Assembly: GCA_022842445.1 (NCBI GenBank)
Contig: JALHPO010000001.1
Span: 543,144 to 607,143 of the forward strand
DNA: 64,000 nucleotides
Origin: Nitrospira sp.
GTDB lineage: Bacteria; Nitrospirota; Nitrospiria; Nitrospirales; Nitrospiraceae
Reading direction: 5' to 3'
In this document: positions 30,674 to 37,343 of the stretch, piece by piece
How the letters are laid out: each line of letters begins with the position of its first letter
Position numbering within the stretch: position 1 is the stretch's first letter
Made by a program: the position numbers and the translations under genes
The notes under the pieces: generated by a model
What the model was told of the DNA's origin: nothing
What the model saw: the letters and a program-made list of their open reading frames with translations, nothing else
Database searches by the model: none

Positions 30674-32851
30674 TTAGTCCCTCTCCTGCCAGGACCTGAT
30701 GCGTCGCGCGGTAATGACGCCTTTCACCCGTTCAATGGCTTTCATCACGCGGCTCAAATGGGCCGTGTCGGCAATCTCCACTATGAAATCCAGCTCCGCC
30801 TTGCGATCTTCGCGCGTGATGATTTCGGCGCGGCTGATATTCGCCTGACATTCCGCAATGGCTGACGAAACGTTGGCCAGCACACCGGTCTTGTCCTCGG
30901 CAATCACGGCCACCTTGACGGAATGCCGGCCTGGGGTCGCCGTATCCCACTCCACCTCCACCAACCGCTCCCGATCGTAATCCAGCGCTTCCAGGTTGGG
31001 GCAATCGACAGAATGGATCGTGAGGCCGCGACCTCGTGTAATGTATCCTAGAATTTTATCGCCGGGAACGGGATTGCAGCAGCGGGACAGTTGCATCAAG
31101 AGGTCCCGCGAACCCTTGACTTGAATCCCCTGGTCCCCGCCTCTGCCGACTAACGGTTTCGGATGGCTCGGCGGTTCCGCAATCGGCGTGCTGTCAGAGG
31201 CAGGAGCAGCCAACCGTCCGATAACCTGGGCTGTCGACACGTGCCCGAATCCGACGGCTGCGACCAGCTCATCAGCAGTCTCATACCCTTCATGCTTCGC
31301 CGCCTCGAGGAACTGGCTGGACTTGAACATCTGGGCAGGCGCCAAATCATGACGTCGAAGCTCGGCTTCCAGCAGCCGCCGGCCGATTTCCAGGCTCCGA
31401 CTCTGCTCTTCAGATTTGATCCAATGTTTGATTTTGGTTTTAGCGCGCGACGTCCGTACAAACTTGAGCCAATCCTTGTGCGGCGTCTGATTGGGCGACG
31501 TCAGGATTTCGATGGTATCGCCGCTCGTCACTTCATGCTTCAGCGGGACGATCTTGCCGTTGATTTTCGCGCCGACACAGTGGTCACCCACTTCAGTGTG
31601 AATCGCGTAGGCGAAATCGACCGGCGTCGATCCCTTGGGCAGCTCCTTCACCGATCCTTTGGGCGTAAACACATAGACCACGTCGTGGAACAGTTCGAGT
31701 TTGACCGAGTCCATGAATTGCCGGTTGTCGGGTAAATCCTTCTGCCATTCGACAAACTGCCTCAGCCATCCAAAAGCCTTGCTGTCTTTGTCGTCGATCC
31801 GGTCCTGTTCCTTGTACTTCCAATGCGCCGCAATTCCATATTCGGCCACACGATGCATCTCCTCCGTCCGAATCTGAAACTCCACGTGCTCACCCTTCGG
31901 CCCCACGACGGTTGTATGGAGCGACTGGTAGAGATTGGATTTTGGAATTGCGATGTAGTCTTTGAACCGGCCCGGTAACGGACGCCACAGCGAGTGGATC
32001 ACGCCGAGCAACGCATAACAATTCATCTTCGTGTCGGTGATGATCCGTAATGCGGTCAGATCGTAGACTTCATCGAAGGAGATCGACTGTTTATTCATCT
32101 TCTGGTAGATGCCATAGAGGTGCTTGGGCCGGCCATAAATCGCCCCGACCAGTCCGTTTTCCTCCACCGCCTTCTGCACCAGCGCGCCGACTTCCTGAAT
32201 ATACTGCTGCCGGTCCTCGTCCCGCTTTGCCACGCTGACACGCAGCATTTCATAGACATCCGGCTTCAAGTGCTTCAAACAGAGATCTTCGAGTTCGTTC
32301 TTGACCCAGCCGATCCCGATGCGATTGGCCAGCGGCGCATAAATTTCCAGCGTCTCCTGCGCAATTTCCTGGCGCTTGCTCTCGCCGAGATGCTCGAGCG
32401 TGCGCATATTATGCAGCCGATCGGCCAGCTTGATGATCACGACGCGGATATCGTCCGCCATCGAGAGCACCATCTTGCGGAAATTCTCCGCCTGCTTTTC
32501 CTCGGAACTCCTAAATGTAATTTTCCCGATTTTGGTGACACCGTCGACCAGATGAAGAACCTCTTTGCCGAATTCCTGTTCCAATTCATCGGTCGTCGCC
32601 ACTGTGTCTTCCAGCGTGTCGTGGAGCAAGCCGGCCACAACTGCCGCGACATCGGTCTTCAGCAGGGCCAACACGCCCGCGACCGCCACTGGATGCTGGA
32701 CATACGGCTCCCCTGATCGCCTGGTTTGCCCATGATGCGCCTTGGCGGAAAACTCGTATGCTTTGCGGATCATGCCCAGATCGGCATCCGGCTGGTAACT
32801 CCGGAGTCGCGCCAACAATTGATCGATATCGGTAACGGTTTCGTAGACCAT
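30674..32851 (-). CDS. relA/spoT: Bifunctional (p)ppGpp synthetase/hydrolase RelA/SpoT (Rsh)
   Basis: HD domain 'VAGLLHDTLEDT', synthetase 'YDLTALRIITDT', TGS 'PKGSVKELPKGSTPVDFAYAIHTEVG', C-terminal ACT. Confidence 0.95.
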   Translation of the reverse strand: MVYETVTDIDQLLARLRSYQPDADLGMIRKAYEFSAKAHHGQTRRSGEPYVQHPVAVAGVLALLKTDVAAVVAGLLHDTLEDTVATTDELEQEFGKEVLHLVDGVTKIGKITFRSSEEKQAENFRKMVLSMADDIRVVIIKLADRLHNMRTLEHLGESKRQEIAQETLEIYAPLANRIGIGWVKNELEDLCLKHLKPDVYEMLRVSVAKRDEDRQQYIQEVGALVQKAVEENGLVGAIYGRPKHLYGIYQKMNKQSISFDEVYDLTALRIITDTKMNCYALLGVIHSLWRPLPGRFKDYIAIPKSNLYQSLHTTVVGPKGEHVEFQIRTEEMHRVAEYGIAAHWKYKEQDRIDDKDSKAFGWLRQFVEWQKDLPDNRQFMDSVKLELFHDVVYVFTPKGSVKELPKGSTPVDFAYAIHTEVGDHCVGAKINGKIVPLKHEVTSGDTIEILTSPNQTPHKDWLKFVRTSRAKTKIKHWIKSEEQSRSLEIGRRLLEAELRRHDLAPAQMFKSSQFLEAAKHEGYETADELVAAVGFGHVSTAQVIGRLAAPASDSTPIAEPPSHPKPLVGRGGDQGIQVKGSRDLLMQLSRCCNPVPGDKILGYITRGRGLTIHSVDCPNLEALDYDRERLVEVEWDTATPGRHSVKVAVIAEDKTGVLANVSSAIAECQANISRAEIITREDRKAELDFIVEIADTAHLSRVMKAIERVKGVITARRIRSWQERD

Positions 32852-32857
32852 CGTTCG

Positions 32858-34561
32858 CTACTCACCAGACGTTGGACGCATGTCGCGGATACGTAACTGA
32901 ATCCGATCTTCCCCGTTCCAATGGTTCCATTCAGGCGTGAACGCCACATCCACCGGCGTTCTGAGCGAGAGGCCCTGCGCTTCGAGCGATTTCATGCCGA
33001 ATCCGATCCCGTCGAACGCCGGGGATCGCCCCTGGCGAAGCGTCATCTTGAGATGTTTCTCGCCCACGACACGAGCGTTCATAATCTCCAGCCGCCTCCC
33101 CGCAAACATAGGCTCCGGATTGCCGGCCCCGAAAGGATGCAGCGAACCGATTTCATGCAGGAGGCGGTGCGTAACTTCGTCCAAGCGCACTTCGGAATCG
33201 ACGTGCAGCGAGGGAACATGCCCGGCTGAGTGCGCCCACTGGCTCGCCGCCGCAGCGAACCGCTCGGAAAATTCAGACAATCGGTCTTCATGAACGGTTA
33301 CCCCTGCGGCGCTGGGATGCCCGCCGAACGCCACCAGCAGATCACGGCACGATGCCAGGCCTTGGTAGAGATCAAAACCGGGAATGGTACGGGCCGACCC
33401 CTTGCCGACCCCCTGCTCATTGACGGCGATCACAATGGCCGGACGGTGAAACCGTTCGACGAGACGCGCCGCCACAATGCCGACTACGCCCAGGTGCCAA
33501 CGGCGAGAGGCCACCACGATAGCGCCGGGGAGTTCACCAGACTCCACCACGGCAAGTGCTTCCCGCATGATCTCAGCTTCGAGCTGCTGCCGAGTCCGAT
33601 TCAAGCGGTCGAGTTCATCGGCCAACTGTTTCGCATCCGACTCTGACTCCGTCGTGAGCAACTGGACCCCCTTGATCGCCTCATCCATTCGGCCTGCTGC
33701 GTTCAGCCGGGGGGCCAGTTTGAATGCAATGGTCTCCGCCGTGCAGGGCTTCGTCACCCCGGACACCTGTTTCAACGCCCTGATCCCGCACCGGGCCCCG
33801 CGGGAAATTTGCGCCAACCCGTCGCGAACAAAGGTCCGGTTTTCATCTTGCAGCGGCACGACATCGGCAATGGTGGAGAGCGCGACCAAATCCAAAAGCG
33901 ACTCCAACGTGACCGATCCAGGCCCATACGTCGCCTCATACGCACCGGCCACTTTGTACGCCAGCCCGCCGGAGCACAAACCACGGAACGGATAGCGCGC
34001 ATCGCGCCGATGGGGATTCATGACGGCCAGCGCCGGAGGCAGATCCTCATCGGTCTGGTGATGGTCCGTGACGATCACGTCGAGTCCCAATTGATTGGCC
34101 ACCGCAATCTCATGATGCGACGTGGTCCCGCAATCCGACGTCACCAGGAGCGTGACACCCTCGCCTGCCAGCGTCCGGATCGCGCCTTCGTTCAATCCAT
34201 ACCCTTCGCGGACTCGATGCGGGACATACGCAGAGGCGTTGGCGCCCATCCCTCGGAAGAACGAGAGGTAAATGCTGGTCGCCGACATACCGTCGACATC
34301 GTAGTCGCCATAAAAACAGATCCGTTCCTGCCTGAGTATCGCCCGGTGGAGGCGTTCGACGGCCTTGCCCATATCGGGAATCAAAAAGGGATCGTGGGTC
34401 TTTCCGGAAGACATCCAGGCTGTCGCTTCATCGAGCGTGGTCACGCCACGAGCCATCAACAGCGACGCTGTGGCTGAAGAAATCGAGAGCGCCTGGGCCA
34501 GGGCCGCCCGCTGAGTCGGATCAATATCGCGAAAGATCCAGAGTTTCGAGTGCATCCTCAC
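32858..34561 (-). CDS. recJ: Single-stranded-DNA-specific exonuclease RecJ
   Basis: 'FYGDYDVDGMSATSIYLSFFRGMG', 'VTDHHQ', 'LAYKVAGA', 'GGHPSAAGVTV'. Confidence 0.94.
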   Translation of the reverse strand: MRMHSKLWIFRDIDPTQRAALAQALSISSATASLLMARGVTTLDEATAWMSSGKTHDPFLIPDMGKAVERLHRAILRQERICFYGDYDVDGMSATSIYLSFFRGMGANASAYVPHRVREGYGLNEGAIRTLAGEGVTLLVTSDCGTTSHHEIAVANQLGLDVIVTDHHQTDEDLPPALAVMNPHRRDARYPFRGLCSGGLAYKVAGAYEATYGPGSVTLESLLDLVALSTIADVVPLQDENRTFVRDGLAQISRGARCGIRALKQVSGVTKPCTAETIAFKLAPRLNAAGRMDEAIKGVQLLTTESESDAKQLADELDRLNRTRQQLEAEIMREALAVVESGELPGAIVVASRRWHLGVVGIVAARLVERFHRPAIVIAVNEQGVGKGSARTIPGFDLYQGLASCRDLLVAFGGHPSAAGVTVHEDRLSEFSERFAAAASQWAHSAGHVPSLHVDSEVRLDEVTHRLLHEIGSLHPFGAGNPEPMFAGRRLEIMNARVVGEKHLKMTLRQGRSPAFDGIGFGMKSLEAQGLSLRTPVDVAFTPEWNHWNGEDRIQLRIRDMRPTSGE

Positions 34562-34766
34562 CTCGTGACGGGCGTCGGTCTATGTGGAAATGCGTTTGCC
34601 GAGAATCACCTGACAGTATTCACATGAATCATAAGGAGTTACGCGGATGGTAATGGCTCCCCTTCCTGTTGTCAAACCGATCGTGCGGCACGGCCTCCCC
34701 GGTCTGCCTGGAAAAGCGTACTGACGGCTGGATGACAGAGAAACGGCGCACGGGGAGGGAGAGAGG

Positions 34767-34812
34767 AAAAGAGGGAATAGGAACCGGTTGGTTGGCTATT
34801 CCCCTCCCTTTT
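34767..34812 (-). terminator. Terminator-like hairpin overlapping the last codons of the Pup-like gene
   Basis: AAAAGAGGGAATAG (34767-34780) and CTATTCCCCTCCCTTTT (34796-34812) form an imperfect stem; T-run on the minus strand. Confidence 0.5.
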
Positions 34813-34993
34813 GGACGTAGTTCTTCACGAACTCTTCGGCGTTCTTCTCAAGCACGTCGTCGATTTCATCGACAAGCTTGTCGATATCTTCCTTCAGCTT
34901 CTTGCCGGCCTCGACGACTTTGGGATTGGCCTTGACCTCATCTTTGGCCTGAGGGTCGCGTTTCGGCTCCTGTTTGCGCTCCTGTTTTTCCAT
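34796..34993 (-). CDS. pup: Prokaryotic ubiquitin-like protein Pup, C-terminal GGE
   Basis: 65 aa, Lys/Glu-rich N-terminus and 'DKLVDEIDDVLEKNAEEFVKNYVQKGGE', closely matching the Pup C-terminal signature. Confidence 0.9.
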   Translation of the reverse strand: MEKQERKQEPKRDPQAKDEVKANPKVVEAGKKLKEDIDKLVDEIDDVLEKNAEEFVKNYVQKGGE

Positions 34994-35124
34994 TCGAGCA
35001 CCTCCAATATGATTCGGAGCACCTCTCGTGGATCAACGCTGCGCGTGATCCCCTGCTGTCAACTTACTCCAGGCCCTGCAAAGCCGTCAAGGCAAGGCCA
35101 AAAATCTCGCTTCGCCCGTCGAGG

Positions 35125-35288: not shown

Positions 35289-37343
35289 TCAGACGATCAG
35301 CGAGACGATCAGCAGCGCGACGATGTTGATGACCTTGATCATCGGATTCACCGCCGGTCCGGCCGTATCTTTATACGGATCGCCCACTGTATCGCCGGTG
35401 ACGGCCGCCTTGTGCGTGTCTGTACCCTTCAACCCCTGCTCTTCGATAAACTTCTTCGCATTATCCCAGGCGCCGCCGCCGCTCGTCATCGAAATCGCCA
35501 CGAACAACCCCGTCACAATGCTGCCGACCAGCACACCACCGAGGGCCTGCGGCCCGAGAACCAGCCCGACGATCACGGGCGAGATCACCGGAATTAGCCC
35601 GGGCACCATCATTTTTTGAATCGCCGCCTTCGTCACGATATCGACACAGGTGCCGTACTCCGGCTTGCCGGTCCCTTCCATAATACCCTTGATCTCCCGG
35701 AACTGCCTCCGAACCTCTTCCACAATCAAACCGCCCGCTTCACCGACAGCTCTCATACAGAGCGAGCCAAAGATAAACGGCAGCATGCCGCCCAAGAACA
35801 ATCCGACCAGCACCTTGGGATTGGACAGATCGAACGCCGCCAGCGCCGGATTGTGCGCCGCGACTTCACGGGAATATTCCGCAAATAGCACCACCGCCGC
35901 CAACCCGGCTGAGCCGATCGCATAGCCCTTCGTCACCGCCTTGGTCGTGTTGCCGACCGCATCGAGCGGGTCCGTAATGTCGCGCACGGCTTTGCCCAAA
36001 TGTGACATTTCAGCAATTCCGCCTGCGTTATCCGTAATCGGGCCGAATGCATCGATCGCCACGACGATCCCGGCCATCGAAAGCATCGACACCGCCGCCA
36101 CAGCCACACCGTACAAGCCACCAGACTCCGCCCCGCCGCAGACCCAGAAGCTGCCCAAAATCGCCGCCGCAATCACCACCACCGGCGCCGCCGTCGACTG
36201 CATGCCGACTGCCAGCCCCGCGATGATATTCGTCGCATGACCGGTTTCGCTCGCCTTGGCGATATATTGCACCGGCTCGTAATTCTTCGACGTGTAGTAA
36301 TCGGTAATGAACACCAGGGCCAAAGTCACGATCAATCCGATCAGCGCCGCCATATAATAGCTCATCCCACTGACTCCGCCGACGCCGTTCATGATCGATG
36401 ACGTAATGGGATAGAATGCGATAGCCGCGATGCCGCCGGCCACGAACAAGCCCTTGTACAAGGCCGTCATGATCTCGCCGCCCTCGCTCACCTTCACAAA
36501 CAAGATCCCGATAATCGTCGCGAAGATCGTCACGCCGCCCAGCGCGAGCGGATAGAGAATCGGCGCGGTCGCCCCCTTGAACATTGTAAAGGCCAGGACC
36601 ATCGCCGCGACCGTCGTCACGGCATAGGTTTCAAACAGGTCCGCGGCCATGCCGGCGCAATCGCCGACGTTGTCGCCGACGTTGTCGGCGATCACAGCCG
36701 GATTGCGAGGATCGTCTTCAGGGATACCGGCTTCCACTTTTCCTACGAGATCCGCGCCCACGTCTGCCGCCTTGGTATAGATACCGCCACCGACCCGGGC
36801 GAAGACCGAGATCAAACTGCCGCCGAACCCGAGACTGAGCAACGCGTGAATGGCTTTCTCTTGCCCGGCCACCGATTGCGCGATCATATAGAAGGTCGTG
36901 ATGGCCAGCAGTCCCAGACCGATCAGCAACAGACCGGTCACCGCACCCCCTCGAAACGCGACAGTCAAGGCGGCGTTCATACCGTCATGAGCCGCCTGGG
37001 CTGTCCGCACATTCGCGCGCACCGCGATGATCATGCCGACATAGCCGGCGATGGACGAGGCTCCCGCGCCGACCAGAAATCCGATCGCCGTCAACAGACC
37101 GAATTTATCGGAAACGGCCCCTGCGCCCCAGAGCAGGACGAACAGCACAGCCGCCACCATCCCCACCGTCCGATACTGCCGATTCATATAGGCACTGGCG
37201 CCCTCCTGAATAGCCTTCGCAATCTCCTGCATCTTCGCGTTGCCCGCGTTGAGCTTGAACACCCACATGGCCAAATAGAGACCGTAGGCAATGCCGGCCA
37301 CGGCCGCGATCAATGCAAACGTAACAATCGCTGAATCACTCAC
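35289..37343 (-). CDS. hppA: Membrane-bound proton-translocating pyrophosphatase (K+-insensitive type predicted)
   Basis: 684 aa, many TMs; '[54 protein letters not shown]'; '[21 protein letters not shown]' (Lys at the K+-determinant position). Confidence 0.95.

Follow-up and report, generated by a model that had tools for sequence, protein, structure and literature searches.

A gene resembling pup, which encodes the prokaryotic ubiquitin-like protein, lies in a 64-kb stretch of Nitrospira sp. DNA (64,000 nucleotides, hereafter the window) in which the earlier note had seen no proteasome, ARC/Mpa, dop or pafA gene. This raises the question whether the gene encodes a genuine Pup and, if so, which enzymes and protease it would serve and how it came to be separated from them.

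Identity of the window's Pup

The claim that a pup gene occupies positions 34796-34993 held up against profiles, structures and orthologues. The open reading frame lies on the minus strand, which had not been given, starts with ATG and encodes 65 amino acids with the C-terminus ...NAEEFVKNYVQKGGE. A search with Pup-family profile HMMs places it within the family, with scores above cut-off for both models: 77.1 bits against 27 for Pfam Pup PF05639 (E 1.9e-21) and 61.6 bits against 41.45 for NCBIfam TIGR03687. The protein also aligns with the Pup chains from solved Mpa-Pup, Dop-Pup and PafA-Pup structures, from residues 26-28 to 65 with chains 3m91, 3m9d and 7px9 and from residue 38 or 39 to 65 with chains 7oy3 and 4bjr; the last 38-40 Pup residues are aligned in the Mpa complexes and the last 27-28 in those of PafA and Dop. 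At the level of sequence alignment it comprises the region bound by Mpa, PafA and Dop together with the C-terminal GG[E/Q] signature, ending in QKGGE. Purifying selection on pup is strong among relatives (median dN/dS 0.05, from the 71 pairs whose dS was measurable), the C-terminal half with its GG[EQ] end is near-invariant across 43 pup genes of relatives, and orthologues were detected in 109 of 119 genomes of the family; a single Pup gene was found in the whole genome. The profile matches and the dN/dS value rule out a chance open reading frame, and the product is a genuine Pup. The profiles of the related tag UBact (NF033388 and PF20513) gave no match to it up to E 1, so that it matches Pup models only and is not UBact.

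The terminal glutamate, to which the earlier note had drawn attention, is real but no peculiarity of this locus. Among 43 Pup sequences encoded by relocated genes (see below), two loci of which come from genomes sampled twice, 35 end in GGE and 8 in GGQ, and since both endings occur among close relatives, within the window's own genus (GGQ at L030), the glutamate is ordinary. Bypass of deamidation by a terminal Glu is a known situation in C. glutamicum, and the retention of dop despite a GGE end is to be expected because Dop doubles as depupylase (PMC3511204).

Partner genes and a second tag system

The genome's own Pup-ligase, ARC and 20S proteasome proteins have no match in the 64 kb, in agreement with what had been reported of the window, which lacks Pup partners because it is too narrow. 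A genome-wide search for prcBA, dop, pafA and arc/mpa found a complete cluster on the contig that carries pup and a second cluster elsewhere. The first, cluster 1, lies just outside the window, at about 515.6-521.9 kb of the pup contig (G000:C1, 647 kb), the pup-dop separation being 57.8 kb, and encodes, on one strand throughout, ARC (593 aa), Dop (499 aa), PrcB (276 aa), PrcA (228 aa) and PafA (464 aa). The assembly is a draft, 90% complete with 1.5% contamination, in which pup and cluster 1 share one contig. PafA (570.3 vs 551.3) and Dop (543.7 vs 492.3) pass the NCBIfam equivalog cut-offs, and so do 20S alpha, 20S beta and pup_AAA. Alignment to their solved counterparts shows that PafA and Dop keep the region of the catalytic Asp and that an extra N-terminal segment of Dop matches the Dop-loop region; residues 60-588 of ARC align with mycobacterial Mpa. 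The ARC protein terminates in GHYL, resembling the GQYL tail of Mpa. No second Pup was found within cluster 1, and none lies between dop and prcB.

Hence PafA, Dop, ARC/Mpa and 20S alpha and beta all occur in the genome of this Pup, and an orphan Pup without partners is ruled out by the complete partner cluster on the same contig. The description of the gene as stand-alone is correct in that it is detached from the proteasome and pafA genes, but not in the sense of lacking partners, given cluster 1 just beyond the window and the UBact cluster described below. The physical separation from all partners could also be taken to mean that the protein is a relic, or a small moonlighting protein without a role in pupylation; this is extremely improbable in view of the strong purifying selection, the near-invariant C-terminal half with its GG[EQ] end and the joint retention of pup and cluster 1 across the order.

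Cluster 2 lies on contig C5 at about 71.6-78.5 kb (L012:5570-12515) and encodes an ARC-like and a Dop-like protein, a 64-aa tag ending in RYRQRTGE, PrcB, PrcA and a PafA-like protein. Scores of 80.7 bits with NF033388 and 77.7 bits with PF20513 identify the tag as UBact, and the PafA- and Dop-like proteins fall short of the Pup equivalog cut-offs. Cluster 2, whose tag ends in RTGE, is thus a member of the UBact system (Lehmann et al.), whereas the window's Pup is not. Unlike pup, UBact lies between Dop2 and PrcB2 in 20/20 family loci. Contig C10 (L014:4561-6504) carries homologues of HslV and HslU, as read from the open reading frames; the third proteasome-fold match found there is HslV beside HslU, and the proteasome-fold proteases of this genome are therefore three: the Pup-cluster 20S, the UBact-cluster 20S and HslV.

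Pup-ligase homologues are found in all 119 family genomes and UBact in 95. According to lists compared by hand, both tags occur in 88 genomes, Pup by itself in 21, UBact by itself in 7 and neither tag in 3, which are 66-79% complete. Exactly two Pup-ligase genes are found in 16 of the 21 genomes in which UBact went undetected beside Pup, and genomes with both tags usually have four. In G066, which has UBact and no Pup, both ligase genes lie inside the UBact cluster, which suggests that the Pup system was genuinely lost there; some of the other UBact-only genomes, G070 for example, still have four ligase genes, and pup was therefore probably missed in a draft assembly. A binning artefact is an unlikely source of the dual system, as both tags are present in single-contig genomes of relatives, for instance G054, G074, G082, G103, G030 and G062.

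The frequent co-occurrence of the two systems and the G-E end common to both tags would be compatible with a detached Pup that works, exclusively or in part, for the UBact machinery (PafA2, Dop2 and ARC2), or with substrates or cores being shared. We regard such sharing as quite improbable, because UBact resides in a cluster of its own, the 16 genomes with Pup and without detected UBact have exactly the two ligase genes, G066 has the UBact cluster only, and the C-terminal half of Pup has kept its canonical form, as known from complexes with PafA, Dop and Mpa.

Position of pup across the order and its promoter-like elements

The neighbours of pup are those named in the earlier note, hppA and recJ. 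Upstream lies hppA (35289..37343, minus strand; Pfam H_PPase, 883 bits, and synteny), which encodes a membrane pyrophosphatase; downstream follow recJ (32858..34561, minus strand; Pfam DHH, DHHA1 and RecJ_OB), for a single-strand DNA exonuclease, and 3' of it a relA/spoT-type (p)ppGpp synthetase/hydrolase gene (30674..32851, minus strand; Pfam HD_4, RelA_SpoT, TGS and ACT, and synteny). In all loci examined of the window's own and the sister family, pup precedes (recJ)-relA, in most cases follows hppA, and adjoins hppA, recJ or relA. In 39 family genomes that have pup and dop on a single contig, the distance between them, worked out by hand from listed coordinates, ranges from 39 to 862 kb with a median of 48 kb; in three genomes of the sister family the gap between pup and the cluster measures about 84 kb, 113 kb and 1.4 Mb. 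Direct reading of cluster 1 in G000, G001, G030, G006 and G010 shows it complete but without pup, and in the sister family pup is likewise missing across dop-prcB (G189, G227, G255, G265, G224, G175 and G218). The detached position, which had been singled out as worth a look, thus proved to be an order-wide relocation: pup is adjacent to dop or pafA in none of the loci examined of either family, its detachment is a fixed trait of the order, and adjacency to these genes is a positional trait and not a functional requirement.

Outgroup Nitrospirota, from other orders of the class and from other classes, have the gene order ARC-Dop-Pup-PrcB-PrcA-PafA, over as much of it as their contigs cover. 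The exception is a single genome (G149, loci L107 and L069), where pafA adjoins pup and no further gene of the system was recognised. In this distant Nitrospirota MAG, pafA comes immediately after pup on the 13-kb contig of L107 (G149:C90), on which dop, prcBA and arc were not recognised; this is possibly a reduced system or a rearranged draft. Outgroups with pup still inside the cluster have recJ next to relA as well (L123-L126, L130 and L133), so pup arrived beside an existing pair. A contig titled Nitrospinota (L161, JADFRB010000100.1) shows pup-recJ-relA as in the Nitrospira order and is either a misassigned MAG or an instance of the same arrangement elsewhere.

Outside the Nitrospirota, pup was seen without dop or prcB alongside in MAGs titled Methylomirabilota/NC10 and Rokuibacteriota (L165, L166 and L173), and in two of these genomes a Dop-PrcB-PrcA-PafA cluster lacks pup (L221 and L220). 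The open reading frames around pup at L165 and L166 give a folE-mrp-mog-like context unlike that of Nitrospira, which suggests that the detachment in Methylomirabilota/Rokubacteria was a separate event, a lead drawn from fragmentary drafts.

Upstream of pup, a promoter-like element TTGACG-N18-TAAGTT (35061..35090, minus strand), identified from sequence only, belongs to a motif common to relatives, and a comparison of the upstream sequences of 43 pup genes marks a Shine-Dalgarno-like GGAGGTGCTCGA directly 5' of the ATG (34994..35005, minus strand), GGAGGTG preceding the pup ATG in most relatives. A second promoter-like element, TTGACA-17-TACCAT (34647..34675, minus strand), lies between pup and recJ and would serve recJ-relA; a similar motif is found in relatives. 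All 34 of 34 family loci have the pattern TTGAC[GC]-N-TAnnnT upstream of pup, where mononucleotide shuffling predicts 0.16, as do 7/9 sister-family loci, and TTGACA-N-TAnnnT lies between pup and recJ in 31/31 loci (0.46 expected). These counts are to be read in the knowledge that the patterns were chosen after inspection of the aligned sequences and that the loci are related by descent. No conserved terminator hairpin was found 3' of pup, the hairpin in the window being weak (z -0.84) and the relatives having no consistent structure there. Because pup has its own promoter-like motif in every family locus and recJ-relA a separate one, pup looks like an independent transcription unit; the motifs support separate transcription of pup and recJ-relA without proving it.

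These elements bear on the idea that pup moved in order to couple tagging to the stringent response, being co-regulated or co-transcribed with recJ-relA and rising with (p)ppGpp in starvation. It would fit the fact that relA is the most persistent downstream neighbour, with pup directly 5' of relA where recJ is gone (L029, L091 and L121), that pup, recJ and relA lie on one strand throughout, and that pupylation matters for Mycobacterium smegmatis in nitrogen starvation (PMC7947786). However, the promoter-like site between pup and recJ, in addition to that of pup itself, gives the genes the appearance of being separately promoted, and outgroups have the recJ-relA pair without pup next to it, so that the neighbourhood may be accidental. 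We therefore consider this coupling rather unlikely.

Proposed explanation and relation to known systems

The reading that we prefer, at a probability of roughly 85%, is that the gene encodes a functional Pup, the tag of cluster 1, which was relocated in the order's ancestor and is independently transcribed. In that ancestor pup would have been lost between dop and prcB and fixed 5' of the pre-existing recJ-relA pair, becoming a transcription unit of its own with a sigma-70-like promoter and a ribosome-binding site. The cluster 1 PafA could ligate this Pup through its GGE terminus without prior deamidation; tagged proteins would then pass by way of the ARC ATPase into the 20S core, with Dop removing or recycling Pup. 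The separate promoter probably sets tag abundance independently of the enzymes and the protease, and UBact would operate in parallel with its own enzymes, its ancestral gene order kept. The identity of Pup, the complete partner cluster, the relocation and the conserved promoter-like motifs are read from the genomes themselves; from these we infer conjugation of Pup, its pairing with cluster 1, and independent regulation with the benefit this may bring.

All six components of the actinobacterial Pup-proteasome system (in Mycobacterium Mpa/ARC, Dop, Pup, PrcB, PrcA and PafA) occur here too, Pup, PafA, Dop, ARC and 20S matching the family models and Pup, PafA, Dop and ARC the solved structures. 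In contrast to that system, pup lies tens of kb away in an apparent unit of its own instead of between dop and prcB, and Pup mostly ends in GGE, so that deamidation is unneeded in most species. Within the Nitrospirota, Leptospirillum ferrooxidans has two complete systems, L1 and L2, with identical gene context and a second Pup without GGE, according to a 2012 review (PMC3511204). The genome of the window likewise has two complete clusters and a second tag without GGE, but in it the Pup gene has left its cluster. The L2 system is probably UBact, and the presence of two systems in one Nitrospirota genome had thus been noticed previously.

As for the position of pup, its gene was described as invariably adjacent to that of PafA (Iyer et al., 2008; PMC2588565), and the gene order of the system as "rigidly conserved" in the 2012 review (PMC3511204), generalisations that the order-wide relocation contradicts. 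In the literature searched no account of a detached pup was found; the 2017 UBact paper lay outside this search, and earlier notice of the detached pup, or of both tags occurring together in Nitrospira, is possible. The gene family and the system are known; the order-wide detachment into an apparent unit of its own is a new arrangement.

A wider view, which we put forward tentatively and with more doubt than conviction, is that the order uncoupled its tag gene, independently promoted beside relA/spoT, while an orthogonal second system runs in parallel, the two pathways being differentially controlled by tag supply, and that the Methylomirabilota arrangement had a separate origin. Members of Nitrospira are among the main nitrite oxidisers and comammox bacteria, and annotation that leans on the neighbourhood of pup and its enzymes would miss pup in them. 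With Pup and UBact together in most genomes of the family, it can be asked whether the two tag systems divide substrates between them and, in these dual-tag genomes, whether tag supply is the control point.
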